This document shows, in pieces, positions 1 to 16,600 of a stretch of DNA of 17,257 bases. The stretch is taken from contig JABXJV010000490.1 of assembly GCA_013375355.1 (NCBI GenBank), forward strand, positions 1 through 17,257, written 5' to 3'. How positions within the stretch are numbered: position 1 is the first letter of the stretch; every line of letters starts with the position of its first letter. The position numbers were made by a program, and so were the translations under genes. The notes below the pieces were generated by a model. That model was not told the origin of the DNA. It saw nothing but the letters and a program-made list of their open reading frames with translations, and searched no databases. This DNA is from Candidatus Helarchaeota archaeon. GTDB taxonomy: Archaea; Asgardarchaeota; Lokiarchaeia; Helarchaeales; JABXJV01.

Positions 1-533
1 TGGGGCATTTCTCGTAGTTTATAGCCTAGTTTCATGTGTCTGCGATCAAAAAAATCCTCATCACCATATGCGTACCACCAATCTACTGGAAACCCGTCCT
101 CCATGTGAATATTAAACATAAGCACACATTCACGCGTTATATCATTTATACCTAAGAAACTTATATCATGGGAAGGACCGTATATCATTACGCTACTTGA
201 GGAGTGGAGGTCTGCCCTAATTGTTAAACTGGGCGGGAAACCCCAATAAACCATCGTTTCCGACTTTCGCGTGATCTTACCCTCTTCAATGGCTTTTTCT
301 AAAGCAATTCCGTCCTCCATTCTACCATGGAGGACACGTCCAGCTTCTTCTGAGATGTCATATTTTAAAAAAGATTCGTATTCGTCCCAATCTATAAATT
401 GTAGAATCCAGAGCACCCCTGGAGTAAGTGGAATGAATTTTTTTGTATAAAGGTTATCGGGAATAGTTTTATATGCTTCAGTTATTGTCCGTTTCGGTTT
501 TAATTCAGAAATATCTAAAGCTTCTAATTTCAA
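1..533 (-). CDS. Family A protein, partial (C-terminus beyond window)
   Basis: The minus strand is open from position 533 to the window edge (about 177 codons, no stop). The product is a close paralogue of the protein at 589-1905. Shared blocks include PKRTITEAYKTIP near the N-terminus, RADLHSSSS, MIYGPSHDIS, GINDITRE, NIHMEDG followed by PVDxWW, and RRHMKLGYKL. I place the start at TTG (533-531): a GGAGATGA ribosome-binding site lies at 545-538, the aligned neighbour starts the same way, and no ATG is available near the conserved N-terminus. The gap to the upstream gene is about 55 bases, so the two are probably one operon. I do not recognise the family and assign no function. The product is predicted soluble in the visible part. 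Confidence 0.85.
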   Translation of the reverse strand, partial: MKLEALDISELKPKRTITEAYKTIPDNLYTKKFIPLTPGVLWILQFIDWDEYESFLKYDISEEAGRVLHGRMEDGIALEKAIEEGKITRKSETMVYWGFPPSLTIRADLHSSSSVMIYGPSHDISFLGINDITRECVLMFNIHMEDGFPVDWWYAYGDEDFFDRRHMKLGYKLREMP

Positions 534-588
534 ATATTCATCTCCCAATTGAAAAAAAGTTATTTTGTAATAGAAGGAAACTAATAAA

Positions 589-1905
589 TTAGGGAGTCTT
601 TTTATACTTGATTATCTTTCGGATCTTCTTAACCTTTTTTCTGGCTCGTTTTTTACGCTTTTCTTCTTCCATCCACCCCTCGGGTTTTAAGTATTTTGTA
701 TCTTCTCCGAGACCGATTGAAATTATATGATCTCGGGTGACTTTATCAATTTTTGACTTATGAGTTATATTAAAAAGTACACCCGAAGTCGCTTCATCGA
801 ATGAAAGGTCTAAATCCTCATAAAATACTCGAGGACCTGGTGGGAATTTAAAATCTAAAGTTTTCCATTCCCCTCTTACCGGATCATATTCTGGAGGGAT
901 AACATTCGCCGTTTGAGAGGGTAGGGGTATACCCAGCTTTTTTAATTGATAGCTTATCATTAAAAGCATACGATCAAACTGTTCTGGAGCCTGAGTTTTT
1001 AATTCTTGCATCATATCCCTACCAAAAGGTTGCATGTAAAGTAAGTTACCAGATAACATTCTTGACAGTGATGTGCACCACTGGGACCGTTTCAAAGCAA
1101 ACATTGTATTTAAAACAGAAGGCCAAGGCTCATAGCCGAAAAGAGGGTGCGGTAGCTTGTATACATTTTCAGCATTGACCCCATCCCAAAGTTGGCCTAG
1201 TGCATCGTAATTAGAGACGGGTGTGATGATTCCAACAGCAATGAATACGAAACAGACCGCATAAGAGGCGTGAGCCCATTGTGGTGTTCGTTCATTTCGA
1301 ATATCCATCATTATATCCCGAATTCTATTGGCTGCCTCAGAAATATGGTCGAATTTTTGTGGCATTTCTTTTAATTTATATCCTAATTTCATATGTCTCC
1401 TCTTAAACAGCTCATCATCACCAGCTATCCACCACCTATCTACTGGCGTTCCGTCTTCCATATGAATGTTGAAAGCGAACTCGATCTCACGAGTTATATC
1501 ATTGATACCGCAGAAACTGATATCATGTGATGGCCCATATATCATGATACTGCTGGAGGAGTGCAGATCTGCCCTTATCGTCATGTTAGGTGGAAATCCC
1601 CATGGGATCATCGTTTCGGACTTTCTTTTAATATTATCGGCAGTAGACATTAAAAAAGAGGTATCAAAATCGTCTACATCAAATTCCTCCATACGGTCTG
1701 CAAGAGTTTGTCCAGCACGTTCGGAAATGCCCTCTTTTAAATCACGCTCAAAATCGTCATAATCTATAAATTGTAAAGCCCATAGAAGGTGAGGAATAAG
1801 TGGAACCCATTTCTTAGTATAAACAGTATCAGGAATAGTTTTATATGCTTCAGTAATCGTACGTTTTGGGGTTAATTCTTTATCATCTAAGGCTTCTAAT
1901 TGCAA
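589..1905 (-). CDS. Family A protein, 438 residues, unrecognised, basic tail
   Basis: This is the first gene of a minus-strand pair. I chose TTG at 1905-1903 because GGAGATGA sits just upstream (1917-1910) and the tandem paralogue has the same arrangement; the only nearby ATG (1913-1911) is out of frame. Conserved blocks are RADLH (111-115), YGPSHDIS (123-130), NIHMEDG then PVDxWW (146-159), RRHMKLGYKLKE (169-180), DIRNERTPQW (201-210), WDGV (240-243), PWPS (260-263), NITHKSK (379-385) and IISIGLG (394-400). Several recur in the more distant members at 6647 and 7940. Residues about 414-438 form a strongly Lys/Arg-rich tail absent from those members, which may bind nucleic acid or acidic lipid (inference). 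No signal peptide or clear membrane helix is seen. I recognise no known family; the invariant His/Glu/Asp/Arg residues would suit an enzyme, but this is untested. Confidence 0.88.
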   Translation of the reverse strand: MQLEALDDKELTPKRTITEAYKTIPDTVYTKKWVPLIPHLLWALQFIDYDDFERDLKEGISERAGQTLADRMEEFDVDDFDTSFLMSTADNIKRKSETMIPWGFPPNMTIRADLHSSSSIMIYGPSHDISFCGINDITREIEFAFNIHMEDGTPVDRWWIAGDDELFKRRHMKLGYKLKEMPQKFDHISEAANRIRDIMMDIRNERTPQWAHASYAVCFVFIAVGIITPVSNYDALGQLWDGVNAENVYKLPHPLFGYEPWPSVLNTMFALKRSQWCTSLSRMLSGNLLYMQPFGRDMMQELKTQAPEQFDRMLLMISYQLKKLGIPLPSQTANVIPPEYDPVRGEWKTLDFKFPPGPRVFYEDLDLSFDEATSGVLFNITHKSKIDKVTRDHIISIGLGEDTKYLKPEGWMEEEKRKKRARKKVKKIRKIIKYKKTP

Positions 1906-1913
1906 AAACTCAT

Positions 1914-2363
1914 CTCCAAAAAGTATAATGTTTTTTAAACTAATTAATTGTGATTTGTAGATATCTACAATATATTTATAGAAATCTATATTTTTCTAAT
2001 ATTTAAATTTTTAGTTAATTAATTACAGAATAAATGAGATTTTAAATCCATTGACTAATAATTATGACTATTTGCCAATCTTAATCTTAACTAACTAATA
2101 CAAGTAAGGTGAAGGACATTTTAAACCTTTAACAAGAGTACCTTCTGTTAAACAATCTATTATTTATGAAGAAATGCGCAAATTTACCCCTTTTTAAGTA
2201 TAAAATTTATATCTTGCGAATTTTTTATTATATTTGTTGGTGTTATCCAATTAAATATTAATATTTGATTTGATTTATAATTAGGTCATTATTTATTGAT
2301 AATATAACTTAGTAATTTTTTTATCAATTGTAATTTAAAAATTTCATTATTTGAAGGGATATT
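1914..2363. other. AT-rich intergenic region between divergent genes
   Basis: About 450 bases separate the family A operon from the surface-protein gene. The left end holds the TATA box and palindromes described separately. The middle (about 2040-2290) shows no convincing ORF, tRNA or repeat. Near the right end, 8-base inverted arms ATTGATAA (2295-2302) and TTATCAAT (2321-2328) flank 18 bases. A weak TATA-like AATATAAC (2301-2308) could serve the gene at 2364. Confidence 0.5.
1955..1990 (-). promoter_or_regulatory. TATA box with overlapping palindromes upstream of the family A pair
   Basis: Read on the minus strand, TATAAATATA (1980-1971) is a good archaeal TATA box. It lies roughly 27 bases before a plausible transcription start near 1949, which leaves a short leader carrying the GGAGATGA site. 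Directly downstream is a perfect 16-bp palindrome, TTGTAGATATCTACAA (1955-1970). A second near-palindrome, TATAGA-AA-TCTATA (1977-1990), overlaps the upstream edge of the TATA box. Symmetrical sites on both sides of a TATA box are typical of archaeal repressor operators. The regulator is unknown. Confidence 0.5.
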
Positions 2364-3266
2364 ATGAAATTTAAAAAAGGAATAATCCAATTTACTGCGA
2401 TTTCCATAGTGCTATTATTTATTATTGGTAGTACCCCTAGATTTGATGCTTTTATTACAGTATCTTCGGTTGATAACAAAAACATTTTTTCCTTAAGTAC
2501 TTCTTGGGCTAATGCAACCGTGATCTCGGATGATCCAACTGGGTGGAATAATGGTGATAGTTGGTATCCTGCCATCGCAATCGATAGTGCTGGAAACGTG
2601 CATGTAGTCTGGGAGGATTGGACTATTGGTGAATGGGGAACGGATATAGAAATTATGTATGCAAATTATACTGCGATGGGGTGGTCTAATGCAACCGTGA
2701 TCTCGGATGATGCAACTGGGTGGAATACTGAAACTAGTTATGATCCTGACATCGCAATCGATGGCGATGGAAACGTGCATGTAGTCTGGTATGATGATAC
2801 AGATAGTGTTGGTGAATGGGGAACAGACCTCGAAATAATGTATGCAAACCGCACTGGTGCTGGCTGGTCTAATGCAACAGTTATCTCGGATGATGCAACT
2901 GGGTGGAATGATGGTTCTAGTCTTTATCCTGACATCGCAATCGATGGCAATGGAAACGTGCATGTAGTCTGGGGAGATGCCACTAATGGTGAATGGGGCT
3001 CAGATTCGGAAATCATGTATTCAAAGAAATCAGCCCCCAGCTCTCCACAGACACCTTCTGAAGAATCACCAGTATATTTAATTGGACAACAAGGCGGTGG
3101 AGATATTTCCAGCTTCTTGTTATCGCCATTGGGTCTTGGAATTATTGCTGGCTTTGGGGCGATGTTTCTAATATTGGTAGTAATTGTAATTAATAATAAT
3201 AAAACTATCAAAGAGCTTAAAAAAATTATTAAAACTCCGACTTCTAAAAAATCAATTGAGAAATAA
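2364..3266 (+). CDS. Membrane-anchored surface protein with three BNR/propeller-like repeats
   Basis: The 300-residue product begins with a short basic stretch and a hydrophobic segment (about 7-22), consistent with a signal peptide or signal anchor. Three repeats follow, starting at residues 50, 109 and 170. Each reads roughly NATVISDDxTGWN, then IAIDxxGNVHVVW, then EWGxDxEIMY. This pattern resembles sialidase/BNR-type beta-propeller blades, and the Asp/Asn-Gly turns could bind calcium. A Pro/Ser-rich linker (about 223-236) leads to a membrane helix (about 255-277) and a basic Lys-rich tail, so the repeats should face outside. Three blades are too few for a closed propeller, so the protein may oligomerise or form an open beta-sheet array. 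GAAGGGAT precedes the ATG by 4 bases. Its ligand is unknown. Confidence 0.85.
   Translation: MKFKKGIIQFTAISIVLLFIIGSTPRFDAFITVSSVDNKNIFSLSTSWANATVISDDPTGWNNGDSWYPAIAIDSAGNVHVVWEDWTIGEWGTDIEIMYANYTAMGWSNATVISDDATGWNTETSYDPDIAIDGDGNVHVVWYDDTDSVGEWGTDLEIMYANRTGAGWSNATVISDDATGWNDGSSLYPDIAIDGNGNVHVVWGDATNGEWGSDSEIMYSKKSAPSSPQTPSEESPVYLIGQQGGGDISSFLLSPLGLGIIAGFGAMFLILVVIVINNNKTIKELKKIIKTPTSKKSIEK
2511..3022 (+). repeat. Three tandem intragenic repeats of 177-183 bp
   Basis: Units begin at 2511, 2688 and 2871 (spacings of 177 and 183 bases, in frame); the third is shorter. Long stretches are nearly identical at the DNA level, including silent positions, for example the roughly 39-base segments at 2511, 2688 and 2871. 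Another conserved stretch around 2573-2610 recurs at about 2750 and 2933. This points to recent expansion or homogenisation, so the repeat number may vary between strains. Confidence 0.85.
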
Positions 3267-3290
3267 AAATAATAAATACCTAATTTATTC

Positions 3291-3300
3291 TTTTTTTTTT
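3291..3300 (+). terminator. Oligo-T terminator after the surface-protein gene
   Basis: A run of ten T residues lies 25 bases past the stop of the gene ending at 3266, just before the convergent corrinoid-protein gene ends at 3309. Archaeal RNA polymerase terminates at such tracts without a hairpin. Confidence 0.6.
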
Positions 3301-3308
3301 AATTCTGA

Positions 3309-3944
3309 TTAATCAAACAATTCCATAATTTTTCTTAAACCACTAACTGCATCTTCGGCATAAGCATCTGCACCTAATTTTTTTGCGAGTTTTAAATTTA
3401 AAGGTGCACCGCCTACAATAATCTTTACTTGATCCCTAAGCTTTGCATCTTTTAGAGCCTTATCAACGACTGAAATTTCCTCCATTGACATAGTAAGAAG
3501 GGAGCTTAAAGCAAGGACCATCGCTCCAGATTCTTTTACTGCATTAACAATCTTATCCGCTGGACAATCCATTCCCAAATCAATAACATTAAAACCGTTT
3601 GACCTTAACATAGTAATTAAAATATTTTTACCTATATCGTGATTATCTCCTCTTACAGTTGTAGCAACAATCGTTTTTCCCGACCCTTTTACATCTGATT
3701 TTAAATGTGGTTCTAGAGTTTTCATTGCTTGCCTCATTATTTCGCCTGCCAAAACTAATTCTGCTAGATAATACTCTTGATCCTCATATAATTTTCCTAT
3801 TACATTCATTCCCTCAGTAAGCGCATTCATAATTTCTTGGGGATTTATACCCTCATCTAATTCCGATTGAATTAAATTTACTATTTCTTCAATGTCAAGA
3901 TCAATCAAGACATCTTTAACATTTTTTATTGTCAAACTAAGCAC
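3309..3944 (-). CDS. Corrinoid (B12)-binding methyltransferase protein, MtaC/MttC type
   Basis: This 211-residue protein has the two-domain layout of the corrinoid carriers. A four-helix cap (about 1-85) is followed by a B12-binding Rossmann domain (about 89-211). The base-off cobalamin motif D100-N-H102-D-I-G105-K-N is intact, with H102 as the expected lower ligand; SSLL (147-150) and GGAPLN (178-183) match the later cofactor-contact loops. It should carry a methyl group on cobalt between a donor methyltransferase and the UroD-type protein encoded just upstream. The upstream stop (TAG, 3947-3945) abuts the GTG at 3944. A more likely start is TTG at 3935-3933, because AGGTG (3946-3942) then sits at ideal spacing; this would shorten the protein by three residues. 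The methyl donor is unknown, since no MtaB-, MttB- or MtmB-like gene is in the window. Confidence 0.92.
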   Translation of the reverse strand: MLSLTIKNVKDVLIDLDIEEIVNLIQSELDEGINPQEIMNALTEGMNVIGKLYEDQEYYLAELVLAGEIMRQAMKTLEPHLKSDVKGSGKTIVATTVRGDNHDIGKNILITMLRSNGFNVIDLGMDCPADKIVNAVKESGAMVLALSSLLTMSMEEISVVDKALKDAKLRDQVKIIVGGAPLNLKLAKKLGADAYAEDAVSGLRKIMELFD

Positions 3945-5105
3945 CTAAGAATATTTCCCAAATTCTTGTATTGCTTTAAATTGTGCAACAATATTTTCCG
4001 GCGGTTGATCTAGAAGAAAATTAGTGGGACCTGGAATGTATCCTCCTTTTCTTCCCAAAGTTTTAATACTCGTTTTAACCGAATTTCTAATGAATTCAGG
4101 TGACTCATATTTTAACAGTTCAGAATCATCAATTGTTCCAATGAGGGTTATTTCAGGATATTCTTCTCTATACATCTTTAGATCATTATTTTTTGGTTTT
4201 AATGATTCCACACCATCAATTCCAATCTCAACAAAATCCGGAAAAACTTCGTGAATATCTCCGCAGCTATGTATAACAAATTTCGCTCCCCCATCATGCG
4301 CAATTTTTACATAATTTGCTAGTATGGGTTTGATAAACTGACGCCATTGTTTAATATGAATCTGCAGACCCGAATTATAACCATAGTCATCCCCACACAT
4401 GACAATATCCGGCTTAGTTTTCATTAATAACTTTAATGACGGTTCTTCAAATGTTTCCCATTGAAATTCTATATGTTGTTGAAGAAAGTCTGGATATTTT
4501 CTTGCAAAACGAGCAAAATTTGCATGTCCAATACCAAATATACAATTTTCAAATGGTCCTGGTATTCCTTGGGACACTACAATATCATATTTATCTAGCA
4601 TATTTCTTCGAATTTTTGATAAATTTCTAAAATTTGATTTATCTGGTTTCATTTCTTTTCCTTTATTCCAGTAGGCTTCAATATGTTCTTTTTTCAAAAG
4701 TCCCGGACCTATGTACCAAAAGTGTGGGATACCATTATCACGAACTACTACTTTGAATAACCCTCCGTGAGCAAGAAGGAGCTCATCTGTATGCTCCATT
4801 TTCATTAATCCTAAGCCTCCAACTGTTTGCCAGCACATATCAACTTTCGCATCTAGACCACCTGGCAATATATCAGTTGGAGAAAATTTAGCCATTATAG
4901 CATGTATAAATGGAATAGCATATGACACTCTATCTTTATCTAATTGATCCATATCTTCATCAGTAAGAGCATATGGGGATTTCATGAAATTATTAACAAA
5001 TTCAAAATCTCCACCTAAGCAAAAACTAGGAACTCTATCCGGGATTTTTCCTTCTAATACGGTCAATATCCTTTCAAGAGCAGACATTTTTTCTTCTTTT
5101 GCCAT
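3945..5105 (-). CDS. UroD/MtaA-family methyltransferase paired with the corrinoid protein
   Basis: The 386-residue product is a uroporphyrinogen-decarboxylase-fold protein. Visible landmarks are ERILTVLEGKIPDRVP (11-26), the GDDYG stretch (238-242), H279-S-C281-G-D (zinc-ligand type), the DGVESLKP segment (297-304), IGTID (322-326) and GGYIPGP plus PPEN (354-371). Family members paired with corrinoid proteins (MtaA, MtbA, CmuA types) transfer the methyl group between cobalamin and a thiol or tetrahydrofolate, which is the likely role here, rather than haem synthesis. Canonical methyltransferases have a third zinc ligand, Cys, in the late PGC-like loop. Here that loop reads PGPTNFLL (358-365) with no Cys, so zinc coordination or acceptor may differ. 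The ATG directly follows the upstream gene's TAA, implying translational coupling; GGTG lies about 8 bases before it. Confidence 0.88.
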   Translation of the reverse strand: MAKEEKMSALERILTVLEGKIPDRVPSFCLGGDFEFVNNFMKSPYALTDEDMDQLDKDRVSYAIPFIHAIMAKFSPTDILPGGLDAKVDMCWQTVGGLGLMKMEHTDELLLAHGGLFKVVVRDNGIPHFWYIGPGLLKKEHIEAYWNKGKEMKPDKSNFRNLSKIRRNMLDKYDIVVSQGIPGPFENCIFGIGHANFARFARKYPDFLQQHIEFQWETFEEPSLKLLMKTKPDIVMCGDDYGYNSGLQIHIKQWRQFIKPILANYVKIAHDGGAKFVIHSCGDIHEVFPDFVEIGIDGVESLKPKNNDLKMYREEYPEITLIGTIDDSELLKYESPEFIRNSVKTSIKTLGRKGGYIPGPTNFLLDQPPENIVAQFKAIQEFGKYS

Positions 5106-5468
5106 TTACAACACCGATAAAATTTTTCCTAATATTCCTAATGCACTAGGATTTTTCATTTTAATTCTTTTTTCCGCCACACCATCTATAATGCTATTAA
5201 TGCCTCCCAATATATCATCTGTTGATAAAGCCAGATAAGCATCACATTCGACATTATCTAAATCTTTAACATCTTTTACATTTTCTAATAATTCTATTTC
5301 AAAATCACCTTTATCAATTTTAATCAAGGTCGCTGGAGGGGCATCAGTAACAAAAAAAACAATATCTATTTTTAAATCTGGAAATTGTCTTCTTAATTTT
5401 CCAAAGGTTTTAAGTAACCATAATCCCGAGTAAGCAACTGCTGGAAAACCTTCATATTTTGAGCTCAT
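5106..5468 (-). CDS. Small SCP2 (sterol carrier)-like protein, first gene of the corrinoid operon
   Basis: This 120-residue protein has no signal peptide or membrane helix. An N-terminal segment (about 8-60) is followed by ECDAYLALSTDDILGGINSI (74-93) and a C-terminal IKMKNPSALGILGKIL (102-117). That order, a strand ending in a tolerated-substrate acidic pair, a helix, then a short strand and a hydrophobic terminal helix, resembles the SCP2 lipid-binding fold seen in small standalone proteins. I base this on pattern memory only. The start ATG (5468) has AGGGA about 8 bases upstream, and the stop abuts the next gene, so it belongs to the methyl-transfer operon. It may bind a hydrophobic substrate or shield an intermediate (inference). 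CTAAATAAAA (5520-5511) is a weak promoter candidate. Confidence 0.5.
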   Translation of the reverse strand: MSSKYEGFPAVAYSGLWLLKTFGKLRRQFPDLKIDIVFFVTDAPPATLIKIDKGDFEIELLENVKDVKDLDNVECDAYLALSTDDILGGINSIIDGVAEKRIKMKNPSALGILGKILSVL

Positions 5469-5665
5469 TTTTTTTCCCTGTTAATTTTTTTCATACATAT
5501 TATCGAATTCTTTTATTTAGAACTTAAAAATGATATTAATTATTTAAATTATCTTCTAATGTATCAAAAATATTGTATAGAAAAATATTTTTAAAATTCA
5601 AAAATTCTTTTGAATTAATCTTAATTTTAAATTATTCTTAAAAAAGAAAGAAAAAGGGATAATTC
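5469..5665. promoter_or_regulatory. Shared divergent promoter region
   Basis: About 200 very AT-rich bases separate the corrinoid operon (minus) from the zinc-ribbon operon (plus). AT-only stretches suitable for TATA boxes occur for both directions, but I cannot pick one with confidence. AAAGGGAT (5653-5660) is the ribosome-binding site of the gene at 5666. No palindromic operator stands out. Confidence 0.35.
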
Positions 5666-6259
5666 ATGAAAAGTGCACTAGAAGTTATTGCTGAAATGTT
5701 TATAAAAGGTTTAGAAGCTAAGGAAGATCGTGAACAAAGAAAAGTTATGAATAGGATGTTTGGTAAAGTAGTACAATTAACTCTCATGAATTTTAATGAA
5801 GCAGTAGTATTTTTCTTCGAAGAACTAGAAGTTGATGGCAAACCAAAAAAATGGGTGCGATATGAGTCATATCCTACACCAATGTTAAAATGTAAAAAAT
5901 GTGGTTGGAAGGGGACTTGGAAGGACTTACCAAGAGAAAAAGTGAAATTTGATGTTCCAGAAGGAGACGTTAAATCAATCCTATTAGATAGGGTTGAAGA
6001 AACGATAGAGAAATGTCCGAAGTGTAATAGAACGAATTATCTTTACTGGAAGGATTGGGTTCACCCCATGGCTAATGTTAATTTATATGTTTCAAGCCAG
6101 TGGGAAGTCGGAAAATTCGGAACCCTTATTGTGGGACCAATACATGTTCGTTTAAAAGCATTAATTAATGTAGCATTTTCTTTACTAAAAGGAAACACAA
6201 AAATAACGCCCTTTTCGGCGCTCTGGACGGTAATAAATTTTGGAACTATTTTGTTGTAG
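5666..6259 (+). CDS. Zinc-ribbon protein with possible SCP2-like C-terminus
   Basis: The 197-residue protein contains two CxxC pairs, C76-KK-C79 and C117-PK-C120, about 37 residues apart, which form one four-cysteine zinc ribbon set in the middle of the chain. The flanks look like a single split domain: the N-terminal helix and strand (about 1-65) and the C-terminal part (about 134-197). The end, INVAFSLLKGN then FSALWTVINFGTIL, is vaguely like the C-terminus of the small SCP2-like protein encoded divergently at 5468-5106, so a ribbon inserted in an SCP2-like fold is one reading (low confidence). AAAGGGAT precedes the ATG by 5 bases. It is followed 8 bases later by the membrane-protein gene, with the ribosome-binding site AGGTGAT overlapping the stop. 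Function unknown; I do not recognise the full-length family. Confidence 0.78.
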   Translation: MKSALEVIAEMFIKGLEAKEDREQRKVMNRMFGKVVQLTLMNFNEAVVFFFEELEVDGKPKKWVRYESYPTPMLKCKKCGWKGTWKDLPREKVKFDVPEGDVKSILLDRVEETIEKCPKCNRTNYLYWKDWVHPMANVNLYVSSQWEVGKFGTLIVGPIHVRLKALINVAFSLLKGNTKITPFSALWTVINFGTILL

Positions 6260-6267
6260 GTGATAGT

Positions 6268-6618
6268 ATGTTTAAAATTGGATTTGCATTTATACAACCT
6301 CCAATCGCAATAGATTTTATAGATCCACTGTTACTATTAGTCGGAATAGCGATTCTCACGATAATTGCCTCTTGGTGTGCGATGTTATCTGAAGATCTTT
6401 TAGCTATTTTCATTGCAGGTATGGCATTTGAATGTTATGCATTCTTATTTAACTTGTTTTTCCGCTTAATTTACCAACTTGATATCACAGCAGTTACCGT
6501 ATTGACAGTCATAGAATGTGGAGTAATAGGATTTTTTATGATTATAAAGTTATATTGGGCTTTAACTGGCGGATGGCATAAGTTAAAAAAGGGTCAATTC
6601 AAGGTAGCTCCCTTTTAA
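6268..6618 (+). CDS. Three-helix membrane protein, weakly MbhD/DUF4040-like
   Basis: The 116-residue protein has three predicted membrane helices (about 19-39, 43-66, 72-98) and a basic C-terminal tail (HKLKKGQFK). The stretch SEDLLAIFIAGMAFE (41-55) and the later LDITAVTVLTVIECG (71-85) recall the pattern of the DUF4040/MbhD subunits of Mrp antiporters and membrane-bound hydrogenases, where a DLLAAVI-like helix is followed by a PDVALTE-like motif. No other antiporter or hydrogenase subunit is nearby, and the Glu of that motif is not at the same place, so the similarity may be only compositional. It lies between the zinc-ribbon gene and a family A gene on the same strand and is probably cotranscribed with both; it might anchor one of them at the membrane (inference). 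Confidence 0.75.
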   Translation: MFKIGFAFIQPPIAIDFIDPLLLLVGIAILTIIASWCAMLSEDLLAIFIAGMAFECYAFLFNLFFRLIYQLDITAVTVLTVIECGVIGFFMIIKLYWALTGGWHKLKKGQFKVAPF

Positions 6619-6646
6619 AGATGTCCCTTTTAAAGAGGTATATTTT

Positions 6647-7840
6647 ATGTCTGACGAAAAAAGAATGACATATGGAGATTTGCCAGACACTCTGATAACA
6701 AAACCCTATTTTCCTCTATCCAGACACATATGGAGATTGTATCAAGAGCTTGGTTACGAGGATATGATAGAGGAAGCTCTCCCTAACCTCTCAACCGAAA
6801 TGCTCTATGATATTTTTAAAGCTCGATTAGATGAAAGTATTCTTACTGCAAAAGATGTATTAGATGGTACAATTAAAAACCCTGACAAACGATTAGCTTG
6901 GATGATCTTTCCTCCTGTTCTTCCTTTACGCTCGGATTTAACACAAGGAACAATGAAATTACTTTACGGTGATTCGCTTGATATGACTTTTTATGCATTA
7001 GCAGATCTTGACCAGGAACTAATATTTTTGTTAAATGGTCATATCGAAAATGGCGTACCTGTTGATTGGTGGGTTGTAGGACCCGAGGATGACCTTCTAG
7101 AACGGCGTCACTTAAAATACGGCTTTAAACTCAAAGATGCCTTTAAACATTCAAAAGATATGACTAAATGTGGTCTTGAAGTTATAGATATTCTAAGAGA
7201 TGTAAGAAATGAGCGAACTCCTCAATGGGCAACGGCTCCATATTCGGTCTGTACAGTGTGGGTGAGTGGAATTGCTGGTTTTCTCGTTGAACCTTCTATG
7301 TTTGAGTTAATCGGTATGATTTGGGATGGAGTTGCAACAAAACGAGCTTATGGCTTACCAGATCACTGGTTCGCCTATATTCCTTGGCCTTCGATGATTA
7401 AAATGCTTCTTTATATGAAACGCGAAGATTTTATCTTAAGAATGGCAGGATTATTAAGTTCAAATCGTTTATGTTTAAATCATATTGAACAAGAAATGCA
7501 AGATATAGGAAGAGAAGTTCTTGAAGGGACCGATTTTTGGGAAAAAGCATTTGTGGATACTTGGAAGACAGGATTTCCATGGCCAGTCCAATCATTGGGA
7601 GCAAAAGGTCCAAATTTAAAAAAGAAATCTACTTATGCAAAGGAAGAATTTGATTGGAAATATCCAAAGGGAAGGTGGATAAATCCAGACGATTTAAATA
7701 TGACCGTTGAGGAGATGACTAAAGGGATACTCTTTGATATCACACATAAGACGAAACCATGGAGTCTTGAGCCAAAAGATGAGATTGTTTCTATTGGATG
7801 GGGCAGAGAAATCGAGGTCTTCAAAGATATTCGTTTATAA
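6647..7840 (+). CDS. Family A protein, 397 residues (copy C), unrecognised
   Basis: ATG at 6647 has GAGGT about 7 bases upstream. Landmarks: YGDLPD (9-14), PLRSDLTQGT (93-102), YGDSLDM (107-113), NGHIENG then PVDWW (130-142), RRHLKYGFKLKD (153-164), VRNERTPQWA (186-195), WDGV (226-229), PWPSM (246-250), DITHKTKPW (364-372) and EIVSIGWG (379-386). It is very close to the next gene (7940) along the whole length and more distantly related to 589-1905, but the key blocks align in the same order. Compared with that gene it lacks the basic tail. The chain is probably soluble and rich in Trp and Tyr. It is downstream of the zinc-ribbon and membrane-protein genes with a 28-base gap. I know no described family with this motif set. 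Confidence 0.88.
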   Translation: MSDEKRMTYGDLPDTLITKPYFPLSRHIWRLYQELGYEDMIEEALPNLSTEMLYDIFKARLDESILTAKDVLDGTIKNPDKRLAWMIFPPVLPLRSDLTQGTMKLLYGDSLDMTFYALADLDQELIFLLNGHIENGVPVDWWVVGPEDDLLERRHLKYGFKLKDAFKHSKDMTKCGLEVIDILRDVRNERTPQWATAPYSVCTVWVSGIAGFLVEPSMFELIGMIWDGVATKRAYGLPDHWFAYIPWPSMIKMLLYMKREDFILRMAGLLSSNRLCLNHIEQEMQDIGREVLEGTDFWEKAFVDTWKTGFPWPVQSLGAKGPNLKKKSTYAKEEFDWKYPKGRWINPDDLNMTVEEMTKGILFDITHKTKPWSLEPKDEIVSIGWGREIEVFKDIRL

Positions 7841-7851
7841 AATAATTTACC

Positions 7852-7860
7852 TTTTTTTTT
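7852..7860 (+). terminator. Oligo-T terminator after copy C
   Basis: Nine consecutive T residues follow the stop at 7840 by 11 bases. The flank (AATTTAC then the T run) resembles the flank after the broken copy at 13601 more than the flank after copy D, which has no comparable T run. Confidence 0.55.
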
Positions 7861-7881
7861 CCATTTTTGTAATGATTGAAA

Positions 7882-7897
7882 TTTCAAATATTTGAAA
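7882..7897. promoter_or_regulatory. 16-bp perfect palindrome in the promoter region of copy D
   Basis: TTTCAAATATTTGAAA is perfectly symmetrical and lies 43 bases before the GTG start of the gene at 7940. The following AT-rich stretch (7897-7905) may be its TATA box. This and the preceding terminator suggest that copy D has its own promoter. The site may bind a dimeric regulator; its sequence differs from the palindrome at 1955. Confidence 0.4.
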
Positions 7898-7939
7898 AAT
7901 TTTATGCTCTAGAAAAATACCAATTCTGGAGGGATTTCA

Positions 7940-9130
7940 GTGTCTAATGGTAATTATAAATATGGGGATTTACCGGATGATATGATTACGAAACCATATA
8001 TCCCTCTTTCCCGTCATATATGGAATTTATATAAAGTTCTGGGATACCAAGAATTATTTGAGGTGATTTTACCTCGTGCATCAACAGAAATTTTATATGA
8101 TGTTTTTAGAACTAGATTAGATGAAAGTATTCTTACTGCAAGAGATGTATTAGATGGGGTTATCCAACACCCGGATAAAAGATTAGCGTGGATGATTTTT
8201 CCTCCCGTTCTCCCATTGCGTGCAGATTTAACACAAGGGACTATGAAATTGCTTTATGGGGATTCACTCGATATGACATTTTTCATTATCACAGATCTTG
8301 AACAAGAATTATTATTTCTATTAAATGGACACATGGAATCGGGAGTACCGGTTGATTGGTGGATAGTAGGTCCTGATGATGAAATTTTAGAGCGACGCCA
8401 TTTAAAATATGGGTTTAAATTAAAAGATGCATTTAAACATACGAAAGATATTACTAAATGCGCCTATCAAGTAACGGATGTTCTTCGCGATATCAGAAAT
8501 GAACGTACTCCGCAATGGGCGACGACCCCCTATTGTGTGTGTATGGTTTGGATGACAGGTGCAATAGGGTTTATAGTTGAATTGAGTATGTTCGAAATGA
8601 TCGGAATGATATGGGACGGAGTCGCAGCCAAGAGAACTTACGGTCTTCCTGACTATTGGTTCGCGTATATCCCGTGGCCATCTATGGTTCAAATGCTTTT
8701 ATATATGAGTCGGGGCGATTTTATCCTACGATTAGCAGGTCTCTTAAGTTCTAATCGTCTATGTTTAAACCACATTGAACAAGAAAATCTGGAAACTTTG
8801 AAAGAGTTATTGGATGGAACTGGGTTTTGGGAACATGCAATTATTAACGCATGGACCCGTGGTTTTCCATGGCCGTCTCACTCACTTAAAGCAAAGCCGC
8901 CTAATCTTAAAAAGAAAGCGATCTATAAAACAGAAAAGTTTGACTGGAAATATCCTGAAGGACGATGGATAACACCTGACGATTTGGAAATGTCTGTTGA
9001 GGAAATTTGTAGAGGCATTCTTTTGGATATAACACACAAAACAAAGCCTTGGAGTGTTAACCCAAAGGATGAAATCGTTTCAATAGGTTGGGGAAGGGAT
9101 ATAGAAGTCTTTAAAGATATTCAATTATAA
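7940..9130 (+). CDS. Family A protein, 396 residues (copy D), unrecognised
   Basis: GTG at 7940 follows a strong GGAGGG site (7928-7933). The protein is a near full-length match to copy C, sharing YGDLPDD, PLRADLTQGT, YGDSLDMTF, NGHMESG then PVDWW, RRHLKYGFKLKDAFKHTKD, IRNERTPQWAT, WDGV, PYWPSM-like PWPSM, DITHKTKPW and EIVSIGWG. Differences are spread over the whole length, so the copies are not recent but are both apparently intact. The gene ends 23 bases before the convergent TPR gene at 9154, with no clear oligo-T stop, so transcripts may overlap. Its 3' end is the closest relative of most of the remnant at 13497-13601. The function is not recognised. Confidence 0.88.
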   Translation: MSNGNYKYGDLPDDMITKPYIPLSRHIWNLYKVLGYQELFEVILPRASTEILYDVFRTRLDESILTARDVLDGVIQHPDKRLAWMIFPPVLPLRADLTQGTMKLLYGDSLDMTFFIITDLEQELLFLLNGHMESGVPVDWWIVGPDDEILERRHLKYGFKLKDAFKHTKDITKCAYQVTDVLRDIRNERTPQWATTPYCVCMVWMTGAIGFIVELSMFEMIGMIWDGVAAKRTYGLPDYWFAYIPWPSMVQMLLYMSRGDFILRLAGLLSSNRLCLNHIEQENLETLKELLDGTGFWEHAIINAWTRGFPWPSHSLKAKPPNLKKKAIYKTEKFDWKYPEGRWITPDDLEMSVEEICRGILLDITHKTKPWSVNPKDEIVSIGWGRDIEVFKDIQL

Positions 9131-9153
9131 AAACTGTATATCTGATGGTGTTA

Positions 9154-12100
9154 TTAAGTTTCGAATATTTTTTGAACAAATTTCCCGATTTTTGAAAAAA
9201 CACTCAAATTTCCTGAATAGGTTTCAAATTCTTCTTGATAAAAATCTTCTATATCTTGAATTAATTGTTTTAATTTATTACGTAAGGTCATTAAGTTCTC
9301 TTCTGTTATTAAAGCAACAGTAGTATATTTTCCATGCTCGAGGAGGATAAGCATTTCTTCTTGCTCAACTATTTTTACTTTAGTCTGGCTTTTAGTTACT
9401 TCTTGTATTAATGCTGAAATTCCTGTTAGCCCTCCGGCAACTAATTGAGGTTCAACATCTTTTTCTACTCTAAAAGAATGGTCATAAATAGAGACTCCAT
9501 TTGGCATGATAAAATAAATATGATGGATTCGTTTTGACCAATTTAACTCAGATTCAGTTTGTAGATCAGTTTTTTGCATCTCGTCAATATTTACTGAAGA
9601 GCTAATTTCTATGGGGCAAGAAGGGGCTGAAATACCGACAGCACTTTCAGAAATTGCTGGTTTTTCAATAACATTTAATGCAGAGGTAAGAATATTTTTT
9701 TCATCATTAATCATTTCTAGACAATTTACAACTTCATCTTTTTTTTGTTTATATCCCGCTTCATCAAAGATGTGTAAAGCATTATTGAGATATTTTGTTG
9801 CTATATTCAAATATTGGTTCTTTTTAGAGAAATCAATCTCATTATCCGAGAGAATTAAATGCCAAATTGCATCAAAGAAAGTTGAAGTGGCTAATGCCCA
9901 TTGGGCATCTTGTTCGAAACCACCCATTTGATAATTTTTTGAAGCTTCTCTTAAAAACATTTTAATTTTTTTATAATAATTAATTTTTTCTTCTAAATCA
10001 GATGATTTATCAAATAAACCTCCAAATTCCAAGGCAGAACAATAAAGAGAATTTCCTAATGATAATTTTTTCATTCTACTTTCTGCAAAATTATTACAAG
10101 CTTTTTCAAATAACTCCGCAGCTATTGCATAAATGGATGATTTTTGTTCATAATTCGCTTGCTCCATATTTTTCCAAGCTTTGCATAAATAATATATGGC
10201 TGTTAATTCTTGTTTTTCGCGTTTAATTTTAAATAATTGACATATATTTTCAAAAAGAGACCCCGCTTTATTATATAACCCAGCTGCAATTAAATGTTCT
10301 CCTTTTTTACTTTCCAATCTTGCAGTTTCAATCTGGTGACGGGCAGTACAATATTGCTCTCGAATTTTTGCGACCTTGATTAAATTTGAGATCCTTTCTA
10401 TATCTTCTAAGGATTTTTTTTTGGCAAGGTATGAATTAAGGATTTTATTTGCATCTTGAAAATTGCTTTTAGAAACTATATATGCGGCGGCTGCCTCTTG
10501 ATGTTGATTTTTTTTACTTAAATATTCTGCTTTTTCCAACATTGCCCATGCAAAATAAAATGGAGATTCAAATTTATATTCACGGAGATTTTTTAATATT
10601 TGACTTGCTTGTTCATAATTTATTTGTGCTTTATAATGGTCTTCTAGGGTATGATATGATTTAGCTCTTTCAATAATGTTCCAAGCTTGCAAATAATTCT
10701 TTAGTTTCTCAATTTTTTTACCTAATTTACTATATGTAAGGGTTAGAATTGCTTGATCAAATGAATCAATAGCATTCTTATAATTTTCCGCGGCTGAAAG
10801 AAAATTTCCCAATCGATCTTCAATTTGAGCAATATTTACATAAACTGTACCCATTAAATTAAAATATCCTTTATTTTTACAGTATTCAATTGCATCCATA
10901 TAAGCCAAATGAGCTTTATTTAAAATTTTATTATCGTCAGTTAATTTTCCTATTTGATAATATGTATTCCCAATTAAAAACAGATTTTCTATATGCCAAA
11001 AGCCTACTGCCATTTTTTTAGTTTTTAATAAAAGGTCCAATGCTTTGTAAACATAATTTAATTTTTCTGAAATCTCTGATGAATTTCTGGCTAACCTAAT
11101 TCCAGTTCTAGAAGCAATAACTAAGTATCCCGAATAATAATTAAAGGTATTTTCATATTTTGGATAATTATATTTCGATATTTCGTTAAAAATTTCAAAT
11201 CCCGATTGTAAATATCTTGAGCTTTCTTTTTTATCTTTAATTAAGTTTCCTAATATTGAATTACCTGCGCTTAATTGGGTATTTTTAAATAAAATAAATA
11301 GTTTATAATTTGGATTATTCAGCATAAGAATTTTATTTTTGGCTAATTCAACTAAATCTAGAAACATTTTAGTAATATCAATGCGTTGACTATCTGGAAT
11401 AGCAGGATTATCCGCACTAACCCCTAAAACACCCAATGCATATAATGATAATTGTGCAGCTATTATTTTAGGAAATATTAAAGGTGCTAAATCAATACTT
11501 TGACTTAAATCATCTAAAATATATTTAAAACCTCTGCTAAGAAAACCCAAATATGCTAAAAAAATTGAAATTATAAATCTAACGAAGTGAAATATTGCTA
11601 TTAGTGCATTAGAATTAATCTGTGGTAGTAGTATTTCCCCTTTCTTGAGAGATTTTTCGGCTCTTTTAAAATATTTTTTTTGTTCAAATTGATTATTCAC
11701 ATAAAATATGGCATAGGTAATACTGAAATACGAGTAAAATAAATAAGCATTAAATTTATTGAGTATTTTTGTTGAGTTTTCAAAAGAATCGATAAGTTCT
11801 TTACATCTATTCAAATTATCGATGTGATATTGTTTAATATTCAAATCTTCAATTGGTAAATAAGATCCAATCCAACCAGCAAATTCCGTAATAGTGCATA
11901 GGAAATAATAAATATAGATTTCAGGAAAATCTTGCAGATTATTTATCTCTTCCCATACATTTGTTATTATTTTTACATTTTCTGAAGCCAATTCTGTGAA
12001 ATTTACATCTTCTTCAATACGGATGAGTTTTTCACCAATTAGTGAACCTAGTGCTCTAATTTCAAAAATTGCTACTTTTAATGAATCTATTAAATTTCCA

Positions 12101-12534
12101 TTTTTGAAATAAATTAATTTTGCTTGATTGAAATAATTTTTTGCAGATTCTAATAGGATATCCTTTTTTCCTTCTTCAATTTCGATTCTATATTTTATAA
12201 ATTCAATAAAACCCATAGACGCGTTTATTTTTTCTTCTTTTTTTAGTTCTTTAAATATCTTACACGCCTTTTGAAAACTTAAAATAGCTAATTGAAATTT
12301 TTTTAAGGCTTCATCTTGTGTTTTTTCGAAATCTGCGACTAAATGATTAATCTCTCCTAATTTATAGTAAACCTCGGCTTCAATTTCCTTTAATTTTTCA
12401 TCTAAACTAATTTTTTCTACTTGTTTTAGAATTTCAATTTCTTTATCCCAATTATATTTACGTTTCTCCTCTTCTGCTTGCTGGAGTAATTCCCTAATTT
12501 TTTTTGACGTTTCGTTTTGGGATGAATCTGACAT
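9154..12534 (-). CDS. Giant TPR-like solenoid protein with C-terminal longin/roadblock-like domain (TPR1)
   Basis: The 1126-residue protein is almost entirely helical. TPR-like helix pairs are recognisable at about 15-115, 505-600 (GYFNLMGTVYVNIAQ then GNFLSAAENYKNAIDSFDQA) and 635-800 (YEQASQILKNL, HQEAAAAYIVSKSNF, HLIAAGLYNKAGSLFENI). A linker (about 955-995) with SAPSCPIEISSSVNI joins the solenoid to a terminal domain (about 998-1126): strands around IHHIYFIMPNGVSIYDHSF, helix GGLTGISALIQEVTKS, then VKIVEQEEMLILLEHG and VALITEEN, then a long helix. This alternation fits the small longin/roadblock/profilin-like folds that Asgard archaea use with Ras-like GTPases; that is inference. GAGGAT lies 9 bases before ATG. 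It probably acts as a cytosolic scaffold or GTPase partner. Copy TPR2 has the same length. Confidence 0.87.
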   Translation of the reverse strand: MSDSSQNETSKKIRELLQQAEEEKRKYNWDKEIEILKQVEKISLDEKLKEIEAEVYYKLGEINHLVADFEKTQDEALKKFQLAILSFQKACKIFKELKKEEKINASMGFIEFIKYRIEIEEGKKDILLESAKNYFNQAKLIYFKNGNLIDSLKVAIFEIRALGSLIGEKLIRIEEDVNFTELASENVKIITNVWEEINNLQDFPEIYIYYFLCTITEFAGWIGSYLPIEDLNIKQYHIDNLNRCKELIDSFENSTKILNKFNAYLFYSYFSITYAIFYVNNQFEQKKYFKRAEKSLKKGEILLPQINSNALIAIFHFVRFIISIFLAYLGFLSRGFKYILDDLSQSIDLAPLIFPKIIAAQLSLYALGVLGVSADNPAIPDSQRIDITKMFLDLVELAKNKILMLNNPNYKLFILFKNTQLSAGNSILGNLIKDKKESSRYLQSGFEIFNEISKYNYPKYENTFNYYSGYLVIASRTGIRLARNSSEISEKLNYVYKALDLLLKTKKMAVGFWHIENLFLIGNTYYQIGKLTDDNKILNKAHLAYMDAIEYCKNKGYFNLMGTVYVNIAQIEDRLGNFLSAAENYKNAIDSFDQAILTLTYSKLGKKIEKLKNYLQAWNIIERAKSYHTLEDHYKAQINYEQASQILKNLREYKFESPFYFAWAMLEKAEYLSKKNQHQEAAAAYIVSKSNFQDANKILNSYLAKKKSLEDIERISNLIKVAKIREQYCTARHQIETARLESKKGEHLIAAGLYNKAGSLFENICQLFKIKREKQELTAIYYLCKAWKNMEQANYEQKSSIYAIAAELFEKACNNFAESRMKKLSLGNSLYCSALEFGGLFDKSSDLEEKINYYKKIKMFLREASKNYQMGGFEQDAQWALATSTFFDAIWHLILSDNEIDFSKKNQYLNIATKYLNNALHIFDEAGYKQKKDEVVNCLEMINDEKNILTSALNVIEKPAISESAVGISAPSCPIEISSSVNIDEMQKTDLQTESELNWSKRIHHIYFIMPNGVSIYDHSFRVEKDVEPQLVAGGLTGISALIQEVTKSQTKVKIVEQEEMLILLEHGKYTTVALITEENLMTLRNKLKQLIQDIEDFYQEEFETYSGNLSVFSKIGKFVQKIFET

Positions 12535-12617: not shown

Positions 12618-13025
12618 TTAAAAATCGTAAGTGAATATTTTTAAATTCCGTATTTTAGGAAAATTTTTTTCAGTAGTATGAAGCGTGGCTTTTTCTTTTA
12701 ATGCAGTGGCAATAACAATCGAGTCATTATATGATAATTTTGTACGAAATTGGCATTTTAGAAGTCCTGCATCCAAAATTAATTCAGGAGTTAAATGCAT
12801 CAATTGGGGGCTAATTTTGTGTTTAAATGAACGAATGCTGCCAGCAGCATAATCTTTTCCACCAGCCACGCAAAGATGTTTAAAAACCTCCACTAATACT
12901 ACGTTCGGAACAGTTGCGAGTATTTTTCCAGCTTTGATTTTTCTCATCAAATCCAAGATGTCTTTTGGGGGGTCCTTTTGATAATAAAGAGAAATAACTC
13001 CTGCATCTAAACAAGCACGAGACAT
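12618..13025 (-). CDS. PIN-domain toxin, VapC type
   Basis: The 135-residue protein is a PIN-domain ribonuclease of usual VapC size. The acidic metal-binding residues visible are D7 (in CLDAG), E46 (NVVLVEV) and D101 (LSYNDSIVIATA). The fourth position, usually Asp in a TxD motif, appears as E119 in HTTEKNF, a conservative change. It should cut RNA unless held by its partner. The ATG (13025) directly follows the stop of the antitoxin gene, in the normal antitoxin-first order with translational coupling. The gene lies 83 bases upstream of TPR1 on the same strand, so read-through into TPR1 is possible; an AT-rich TTAATTATATTC overlapping its stop may instead be the TPR1 promoter. Confidence 0.88.
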   Translation of the reverse strand: MSRACLDAGVISLYYQKDPPKDILDLMRKIKAGKILATVPNVVLVEVFKHLCVAGGKDYAAGSIRSFKHKISPQLMHLTPELILDAGLLKCQFRTKLSYNDSIVIATALKEKATLHTTEKNFPKIRNLKIFTYDF

Positions 13026-13262
13026 TTATCTTTCGAGCTCCAGATCTTCCTTACGAGATTTCTTATAAATTTCACGAAATTCCTCAACAGTAAGTCCTTT
13101 TTTTCTTAGCGATTCTTCAGATTCAATGGGGATTATTTTTATTTCGCCATTTTCTTCTGTTACTATTATATAATCCCCGTCTTTGATTTTATGCTTTTTA
13201 CGAATACCTGCAGGTATTGAAATCATGCCTTTGTTGGTTACTTTTACGATTTTTTCAACCAT
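13026..13262 (-). CDS. AbrB/SpoVT-type antitoxin, VapB
   Basis: The 78-residue product starts with a swapped-hairpin AbrB DNA-binding domain (about 1-46): KVTNKGMISIPAGIRKKHKI followed by KDGDYIIVTEENGEIKIIPI is the classic pattern. A charged C-terminal tail (about 50-78, EEFREIYKKSRKEDLELE) would wrap the PIN toxin. I choose ATG at 13262 because AGTGA lies about 7 bases before it; a GTG at 13271 would add three residues without a good ribosome site. The protein should neutralise the toxin and repress its own operon. A symmetrical element lies upstream at 13287-13297. Confidence 0.88.
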   Translation of the reverse strand: MVEKIVKVTNKGMISIPAGIRKKHKIKDGDYIIVTEENGEIKIIPIESEESLRKKGLTVEEFREIYKKSRKEDLELER

Positions 13263-13286
13263 TTTTTTCACTAATTATTATCAATG

Positions 13287-13447: not shown

Positions 13448-13496
13448 TTTTAAAGATAAAGGTTTTGAAGTAAAATGCTTTGTTATATTAGCATTC
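13448..13496 (+). repeat. 49-bp direct repeat, left copy
   Basis: By hand alignment without gaps, 42 of 49 bases match 17124-17172 in the same orientation. The similarity stops exactly where the family A remnant begins (13497). The two copies are 3676 bases apart and enclose the remnant and TPR2. In the frame of the remnant both copies are open, but nearly all mismatches would change the amino acid, so this is probably not conserved coding sequence. Confidence 0.65.
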
Positions 13497-13601
13497 GATA
13501 TAACACATAAAACAAAGCCTTGGAGTGTTAACCCAAAGGATGAAATCGTTTCAATAGGTTGGGGACGAGAAATCGAAGTCTTCAAAGATATTAATTTATA
13601 A
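13497..13601 (+). pseudogene. Broken 3' end of a family A gene
   Basis: These 105 bases encode the last 34 residues of family A plus the stop: DITHKTKPW, then KDEIVSIGWG and EVFKDINL. The rest of the gene is missing, and the frame upstream is closed by a stop at 13422-13424 with no ATG or usable ribosome-binding site. The first 69 bases differ from the matching part of copy D (9026-9094) by one base. The last 36 bases differ from D at seven positions and from copy C at only four. The upstream junction carries GCATTC, also present just before the matching block in copy D, where TTTTG intervenes. It lies tail-to-tail with TPR2, as copy D does with TPR1. Confidence 0.88.
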
Positions 13602-13613
13602 ATTAATTTCAAC

Positions 13614-13622
13614 TTTTTTTTT
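13614..13622 (+). terminator. Oligo-T terminator retained after the family A remnant
   Basis: Nine T residues follow the remnant's stop by 12 bases, matching the spacing and flank after copy C (11 bases). The terminator thus travelled with the gene end and shows that the remnant carries true 3' flank. Confidence 0.5.
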
Positions 13623-13639
13623 ATAATTTGATAACTAAA

Positions 13640-16600
13640 TTAATTTTCAAATTTTTTTTGAACAAATTTTCCAATTTTTGAAAAAAGACTTAAATTTCCT
13701 GAAAATGATTCAAATTCTTCCTGGTAAAAGTCTTCTACATCTTTAATTAATTCCTTTATTTTATTACGTAAAGTTATTAGGTTTTCCTCAGTTATTAAAG
13801 CAATACTAGTATAATTCCCATGTTCGAGTAAGATAGTCATTTCTTCTTGTTCAACAATTTTTACTTTAGTTTGGCTTTTAGTTACTTCTTGTATAAGTGC
13901 AGAGATTCCTGTTAGCCCACCTGCGACTAATTGTGGTTCAACTTCTTCTTTTGTTCTAAAAGAATGATCATAAACACAAATTCCATTTGGCATAAAAAAA
14001 TAGATATGATGGATTCTCTTATTCCAATCCAACTCTGATTCAGTTTGTAGATCTGTTCTTTGCATCTCTCCAATATTTACTGATGAGCTTATTTCTATGG
14101 GGCAAGAAGGGGCTGAAATACCGATGGAACTTTCCGAAATGGCAGGTTTTTCAATAATGTTTAAGGCAGATGCAAGAATTTCCTTTTCATCTTTAATCAT
14201 TTCTAAGTAATTTGAAACCTCATCTCTTTTTTGATTATATCCCGCTTCATCAAAGATGTTTAGAGCATTATTGAGATATGTTGTAGCGATATTCAGGTAT
14301 CGATTCTTTTTAGAGAAATCAATTTCATTATCCGAAAGAATAAGATGCCAAATTCCATCAAAGAAGGTGGTGGTTGCTAAAGCCCATTTGGCATCTTGTA
14401 CGAACCCACCCATTTGATAATTTTTTGAGGCCTCTCTTAAAAACATTTTAATTTTTTTATAAAAATTAATTTTTTCTTCTAAATCAGATGATTTATCAAA
14501 TAAACCTCCAAACTCCAAGGCAGAACAATAAAGTGAATTTCCTAAAGATAATTTTTTCATCCTACTTTCAGGGAAATTATTGCAAGCTTTTTCAAATAAA
14601 TCAGAAGCTTTTGCATAACTTGAGGATTTTTGTTCTAAATTTGCATGTTCCATGTTTTCCCATGCTTTACATAAATAGTATATAGCTATTAACTCTTGTT
14701 TCTCCCGTTCAATTCTAAATACCTGACAAAGATTTTCAAAAATGGATCCTGCTTTATTATAAAGCTCGGCTGCGAATAAATGATTTCCTTTTTTGCTTTC
14801 TAATCTAGCAGTTTCGATCTGATAGCGTGCAGAACAATAATTTGCTCGAAGTTCTGCAACTTGGATTAATTTTAAAACTCGATCTTTTTCTTTAAAAGAT
14901 CTTATTTTACTTAAGGCTGTCCTAAGATTTTCAATAGCTTCCTGAAAATTATTTTTGGAAACCAAGTACGTGGCTGCAGCTTCTTGATGATTATTTAGCT
15001 TACTCAAACGTTCTGCTTTTTCTAATAAAGCCCATGCAAAATAAAATGGAGCCTCAAATTTATATTCACGTAGATTATTTAGAATCTGGCTCGCTTGTTC
15101 ATAATTCAATTGTGCTTTATGATGGTCCTCATTCGCATGGTAAGATTTAGCGATTTCTATAATATTCCAAGCTTTAACATAATTTTTTAATTTCTCAATT
15201 TTTTTACCCAAATTTGTATATGTAAGTGTCAATATTGCTTTATCGAAGGAACTGATTGCATTTTTATAATTTTCTGCCGCAGAACTAAAATTTCCTAACC
15301 TATCATCAATTTGAGCAAGATTTACGTATGCAGATCCCTCTAAATTAAAATAACCTTTATTTTTACAATATTCATTGGCATCTAAATATGCCGAATAAGA
15401 TTTTTTTAATATATTCTCATCATTTGATAATTTTCCAATTTTAAGATAAATATCCCCGATTAAGAATAAATTCTCTTGATGAAAAAGAGGTACCATCATT
15501 TTTTTGCTTTTTAATAAAAGTTCTATTGTTTTTTTATAAAAATCGATTTTATCCGAGTTATTTATTGAATTTCTAGCTAATAAGGGTCCAGTCCTAGAAG
15601 CAAAATACAAAAAGATATGATAATAGAAATAAGTGTCATTTATTTTTCTATCATCATAATTTGTTATTTTCTCAAAAATCCTAGACGCTATTTTTAAGTG
15701 TTCAGATTTGGTTTTATTATCTTTAATTAAATCTCCTAATACTGCATGGGCTGCACATGTAAGAACATCTCTATCTATATTTAGAATGTTGTAACTTGAT
15801 CCTTCAACTACTGTGATTTCACTTATTGCTAAATCAATTAGATGTAGAGCTTTTTGAGCAAAATCAACACGTTGTCCACTAGGTGTAGCGCGATTATTTG
15901 CACCAGCCAAAATAATACCTGCAGTATACAATAATATATTTATTACCATTATTTTAGGAAATATCAATGATGCTGAGTTAATACTAAAATCCAAATCTTG
16001 CAATACATGTTTAAAATCTCTTGTAAAAAACCCTGTGGCTATTAAAAACACCGAAGTTGTGAATCTTGTGAAATAGAAACATGCTAAGGCTGGATTGTTT
16101 TTTATTTTTGTTAGGGAGACCTCTCCTTTTTTTATCCATTTTTGAGCTTTTTTAAAAAATAATTTTTGTTCAACCTGATTATGTACATGTTGTATAGCAA
16201 AAATCATATTGAGATACGCGTAAATTGCATTACCGTAAAATAGAGCAATTATTTTATTTGAATTTTCATATCTGTTGACAAATTCTCCTAATTGATTTAA
16301 TATTTCGATTATAAATTCTTTTATATTTAGATCTTTTGTTGGTAAATAAATTATACTCCAAGTAGAAAATTCCAAAACATTAGCTAAGAAGAAATAGAGA
16401 AAAATTTCAGAAAGATCTTGCTGATTCATTATTTTTTTCCATATATTCGTAATTAATTTTTCAGCTTCTAAAGCAAATTGTTTGAAATCGGCTTTTTCAT
16501 CAATACGAATGAGTTTTTCACCAATAAGAAGACTTAAGGCTCTACTCTCCAAAATTTCCATTTCTAAAGAATCTATTAAATTTCCATTTTTTAAACTGGT

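Follow-up and report, generated by a model that had tools for sequence, protein, structure and literature searches.

What is the function of a protein family that occurs four times in a single stretch of 17,257 nt of archaeal DNA and matches no family with a curated name? The stretch (hereafter the window) is contig JABXJV010000490.1 of assembly GCA_013375355.1, from Candidatus Helarchaeota archaeon, and the four genes, A1 to A4 (Table 1), belong to what we call family A. This family is so far undescribed, and it has been found up to now almost only in Helarchaeota-type Asgard archaea. In our opinion, the probability is about 40% that family A is a Helarchaeota-specific, strongly expanded family of SCP2-like ligand-binding proteins, a subset of which serves the alkyl-coenzyme M reductase (Acr/Mcr). 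The tie of family A to the mcr/acr loci stands out among our observations, yet it is invisible from the window alone.

The initial annotation of the window, made from its sequence alone, had proposed that four homologous genes with a colinear set of motifs, plus a remnant, are present in two subfamilies, and that the family is an unrecognised one. Homology and colinearity were borne out by pairwise BLASTP and by alignment. A1 and A2 share 65% identity, A3 and A4 share 75%, and the alignments of A2 with A3 and A4, some 395 residues long, show 33-34% (E 2e-66 to 7e-71), so that the proteins form one family with two groups. This division holds within the window, but the wider tree contains many more clades. 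The proposal of four genes plus a remnant erred in its details, the copy at 1-533 having been mistaken for the remnant. This copy, A1, is an open reading frame (ORF) that runs off the window edge, and its closest relative among the compared sequences is a complete 433-aa gene of the genome LW55_61 (75% over 181 aa). The true remnant lies further downstream (Table 1), outside the range 1-9130 covered by that annotation.

As to recognition, A1-A4 matched no Pfam or NCBIfam model at its cut-off, UROD and B12-binding domains included, and a PHROGs search gave matches at chance level only. Likewise, family A matched neither McrA/B/G nor component A2, though genes at the mcr loci do carry these models. 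Sequence and fold comparisons matched no characterised family, and gave no confident match to a known enzyme family with the same conserved residues, which supports the view that the family is an unrecognised one.

A search of 5.8 billion proteins returned 133 homologues. Among the best 120 of these, the named sources were Helarchaeota, Helarchaeales, Promethearchaeota or Lokiarchaeota, except for two sequences from a metagenome-assembled genome (MAG) labelled Deferrimicrobium. When 84,980 species genomes were scanned by pattern, 35 loci came up, every one of them in one of four Helarchaeota MAGs, namely LW55_61 (33 family A matches), Meg19_1012_Bin_504 (17), Hel_GB_A (25) and Hel_GB_B (9). 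These 84 matches include a few fragments; the other genomes of the phylum gave none (four of 227 genomes positive). A search for MCR alpha yielded six loci in three of the 227 genomes, and a search for MCR gamma added a seventh locus in a fourth genome, so that MCR and family A share the same four genomes. The mcrA gene at the seventh locus is present (588 aa, 36-44% identical to the others), even though it was undetected by the Pfam domain.

On contig C94 of Hel_GB_A, the genes mcrA, family A, component A2 (TIGR03269, 680 bits against a cut-off of 517), a 166-aa protein, mcrB and mcrG follow one another on one strand, and the family A gene is separated from its two neighbours by 15 and 14 bp. 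In LW55_61, contig C5 carries two family A genes followed by mcrA, an A2-like ABC protein, a 165-aa protein, mcrB and mcrG, and contig C3 carries a decayed-looking and a further family A gene followed by mcrB, mcrG, mcrA and a 168-aa protein. On contig C8 of Hel_GB_A (mcrB, mcrG, mcrA, 171-aa protein), a family A gene lies 2.7 kb from mcrA. No family A gene was present within 5 kb of the mcr genes on LW55_61 C11, Hel_GB_B C103 and Meg19 C27. Family A is found inside the operon at one mcr locus and within 5 kb at four of seven, against 0.47 expected (P 5.7e-4, for a limit picked after the coordinates were known, with loci taken as independent and genome sizes rounded). With a limit of 500 bp, two of seven loci remain (P 0.009). 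The same 5-kb test gave chance values for UROD (3/61, expected 3.8), B12-binding_2 (2/33, expected 2.0) and SCP2 (3/45, expected 2.7). In addition, the in-operon copy of Hel_GB_A and the 416-aa copy on LW55_61 C5 are sisters (100/100), and therefore the linkage is common to two genomes; A2 of the window belongs to the same larger clade (97/92).

It is conceivable that a large paralogue family with an unrelated role, e.g. membrane lipid handling, came to lie near mcr in two genomes incidentally. The sheer number of matches, the three mcr loci devoid of family A, and the fact that 23 of 48 family A genes (in 36 stretches) lack a neighbour on their own strand at 150 bp or less would agree with this explanation, but the operon-internal placement with its short gaps, the orthologous linkage in two genomes and the contrast between the mcr value and its controls would not, and we regard it as unlikely. 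Still, mcrA has just six of the 84 family A matches at a distance of 5 kb or less, and the window copies are not among them.

The initial annotation had also taken the invariant charged residues for an active or binding site. Their conservation was confirmed over the 118 homologues of at least 340 aa among the best 120 of 133: in A3 numbering, H132, R153, H155, D185, R187, N188, E189 and R190 are present in 118/118 of these best-scoring full-length homologues, and E134 (115/118), D140 (115/118), W141 (110/118) and R154 (117/118) are kept in most of them. Whether used for binding or for catalysis, the site is a putative one, deduced from the alignment. The two mcr-locus sisters retain H132, E134, R153, H155, K157, D185, R187 and N188, and carry D140N, R190Q, P138A and R154K, and one of them E189I as well. 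The decayed-looking copy near mcrB in LW55_61 (Table 1) has lost H132 and other invariant residues and sits on a long branch.

This pattern could also be read as that of a family of enzymes with a common chemistry at the invariant His/Glu/Asp/Arg/Asn site and with different substrates, for which the SCP2-like core would be a mere scaffold. Eight polar residues are strictly kept though the homologues are often just 36-48% identical to A3, which in our judgement exceeds the usual needs of a lipid-holding pocket, and varied oxidoreductases occur among the neighbours (of which a chosen subset of 30 proteins was scanned for families). Conversely, no enzyme family was matched by sequence or by fold, inspection by eye revealed no cofactor motif, and D140N and R190Q occur in the copies of the mcr operons. 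Such an enzymatic role is a tentative but serious possibility.

The comparison with lipid carriers is based on a confident model of A3 (predicted local distance difference test score, pLDDT, 93.7), in which 113 of the 129 residues of an SCP2 domain superpose on the family A protein. Sequence searches made with a 90-row profile (A3 and 89 of 120 listed homologues, of which P0001 and P0004 are A4 and A2 of the window; A1, as a fragment, was excluded from profile, trees and models) gave no match of this kind: neither Pfam SCP2 (PF02036, at E 0.1) nor the Pfam family of LytR-CpsA-Psr (LCP) proteins was matched by any of the 90 members, and in hhalign against a 30-row alignment of Helarchaeal SCP2 domains nothing that was in register scored above shuffles. 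A relationship or likeness to LCP proteins, in which the Arg/Asp residues would hold the polyprenyl (pyro)phosphate carrier used for assembling the cell surface or archaeal lipids, appears very improbable, considering that LCP has no sequence match, that SCP2 chains are more completely covered and that the mcr linkage would be left unexplained.

In the SCP2-like reading that we favour, the core at residues ~50-290 would be decorated with two inserts and a C-terminal extension, and each member would have a pocket, varying among paralogues, that binds a long hydrophobic molecule, whose charged head group would be held by H132, E134, D140, R153, H155, K157, D185, R187, N188, E189 and R190. The members would act beside enzymes working on such molecules: a dedicated subset would handle the alkane or its alkyl-coenzyme M (alkyl-CoM) product for Acr/Mcr, and the remaining members would take part in later oxidation or lipid steps. 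The lipid-carrier-like core, the invariant charged site and the partial placement in acr operons fit the handling of an alkane or of alkyl-CoM. We infer from these features an SCP2-like nature, the binding of a ligand and its identity, as well as any direction of transfer or catalysis; for A1-A4, the same kind of job as that of the mcr-linked copies may be presumed from their relatives.

The route from alkyl-CoM to acyl-CoA in archaea is presented as an open question in parts of three papers (PMC6478937, PMC10322722, PMC10811742), and because relatives lie inside or beside the genes of alkyl-CoM reductase, the presumed hydrocarbon-activating enzyme, family A may supply missing parts of the pathway. 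More specifically, family A might include a component, missing until now, of the anaerobic oxidation of alkanes in Helarchaeota, one that passes on alkyl-CoM or converts it towards acyl-CoA, the invariant Arg/His/Lys site gripping the CoM sulfonate, the SCP2-like cavity taking the chain, and paralogues covering different chain lengths and later intermediates; we consider this quite doubtful. As for the substrates, one study has Helarchaeal ACRs branching together with those of the long-chain-using Methanoliparia (PMC9118554), whereas short-chain alkanes are proposed in the first description of Hel_GB_A and Hel_GB_B (PMC6478937).

A second protein, of 165-206 aa, is present in seven copies in the four genomes, one at each of the seven mcr loci and none elsewhere there (Table 1). 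A profile of five of its sequences matched Helarchaeal SCP2 with an hhalign probability of 89% (E 2.5e-6 for a single comparison; 0/100 shuffles as high), and one of the seven proteins weakly matched Pfam SCP2 (E 0.019). It showed no sequence link to family A (30/60 shuffles as high), so this match ties a lipid-binding type of protein to the reductase independently of family A. The SCP2-like 165-206-aa protein is possibly an undescribed dedicated component of the Helarchaeal alkyl-CoM reductase.

The history of family A is not that of a recent local duplication. The window and LW55_61 come from close relatives (85.7% DNA identity over 4.6 kb), and the syntenic locus of LW55_61 (L001) has orthologues of A2 and A3 (94% for A3) and the same corrinoid operon, but lacks A1 and A4. 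Three more copies of the A1/A2 type (60-66% identical to A1) lie about 12-18 kb beyond that locus on the same contig. A4 clusters with an LW55_61 gene of a different locus (100/97), which adjoins the closest relative of A1 mentioned above. Since A4 has its relative at another locus and A1 and A4 are missing from the syntenic one, the pairs in the window are assembled from old paralogues. The tree comprised 47 copies plus four added from or near mcr loci, and its mcr-linked share is therefore not a random sample. The local expansion initially proposed, for dosage or for different substrates, is too modest a description: the expansion is genome-wide and old, and for this reason divergence is a better fit than dosage.

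The two family A pairs flank a corrinoid operon; the UROD and corrinoid-domain controls above give a functional tie between the two no support genome-wide. The MtaA-like protein of this operon has an HSCGD motif and no later cysteine fit as the third zinc ligand of MtaA/MtbA; for lack of that cysteine, it may be unable to activate CoM in the standard manner. M120, the first gene of the operon, is possibly SCP2-like (82 columns aligned, 1/60 column shuffles as high); it matched no Pfam family at its cut-off, and of the four genomes LW55_61 alone has it, at the locus that corresponds to the window. For the 197-aa protein, 12/60 shuffles scored as high against SCP2, and 0/60 when the Cys region was excluded. 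The surface-type protein has a C-terminal segment that looks hydrophobic by eye. Further downstream, a 3.4-kb direct repeat (76% identity) includes the family A remnant and a 1126-aa gene; the two 1126-aa proteins look tetratricopeptide-like by eye, and their shared C-terminal region resembles, likewise by eye, a roadblock/longin-type domain. The VapBC-like pair between the repeat copies was also recognised by eye, and to its stretch the syntenic locus of LW55_61 offers no match at the DNA level.

Table 1. Location of the features discussed (positions in the window, unless a locus is given).
Feature	Position	Strand	Basis or remark
A1, family A	3-548	-	ORF open at window edge; N-terminal 182 residues only
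A2, family A, 438 aa	589-1905	-	ORF calling, BLASTP, trees; clade also includes mcr-linked copies
A3, family A, 397 aa	6647-7840	+	ORF calling, BLASTP
A4, family A, 396 aa	7940-9130	+	Nearest tree relative at other LW55_61 locus
Family A remnant	13494-13602	+	Last 35 codons and stop; 109 bp, 91.7% to A4 3' end
Surface-type protein	2364-3266	+	Repeats within the protein; weakly matches beta-propeller PF06739 (2.4e-6)
Corrinoid protein, MtbC/MtgC-like	3309-3944	-	PF02310, PF02607; TIGR02370 168 bits, under cut-off 215
UROD-superfamily MtaA-like methyltransferase	3945-5105	-	PF01208 4.5e-16; MtaA model 50 bits, cut-off 400
M120, 120 aa, possibly SCP2-like	5106-5468	-	hhalign against SCP2, score 22.9
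197-aa protein	5666-6259	+	hhalign against SCP2
116-aa protein	6268-6618	+	ORF calling; also in L001; membrane nature by eye
Direct repeat, 3.4 kb	9023-12413 / 13494-16899		
1126-aa proteins	9154-12534 / 13640-17020		
VapBC-like pair	12618-13271		81-aa AbrB-type antitoxin, 135-aa PIN-type protein
In-operon family A copy	L088 10681-11868		Hel_GB_A
Decayed-looking family A copy	L087 7138-8169		LW55_61
165-206-aa protein	L086 11899-12396		
165-206-aa protein	L087 13591-14097		
165-206-aa protein	L088 8530-9030		
165-206-aa protein	L089 11350-11865		
165-206-aa protein	L090 11839-12459		
165-206-aa protein	L092 10552-11076		
165-206-aa protein	L094 7197-7697		

Two protein families, neither of which has a curated name, thus occur at acr loci of Helarchaeota, and one of them is found nowhere else in the four genomes searched; they are concrete candidates for functional work. 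Both would shed light on the way in which an enzyme regarded as laterally acquired (PMC6478937) was adapted by an Asgard lineage, and the 'hypothetical proteins' that number as many as dozens in each genome would become a testable group.

As to known systems, the predicted core of family A resembles SCP2 in its secondary structure, in the order helix, three strands, crossover, strand, helices, strand, helix. It differs from SCP2 in having no sequence match, in its length (about 380-440 aa against 100-130) and in its two long inserts, which bear most of the invariant charged site, and C-terminal extension. LCP domains, which act in bacterial cell-wall assembly, lack a sequence match as well, and their coverage is lower. 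The Mcr/Acr operon (mcrABG, component A2) has a few Helarchaeota family A genes within it or adjoining it, whereas its known subunits are unlike family A, and a scan limited to two short patterns found no member of the family in other archaea. Finally, an MtaA/MtbA-type methyltransferase with its corrinoid protein is enclosed by both family A pairs in the window, and in LW55_61 by the orthologues of A2 and A3, but these proteins are not homologous to family A, and their linkage to it is not beyond chance across the genomes.
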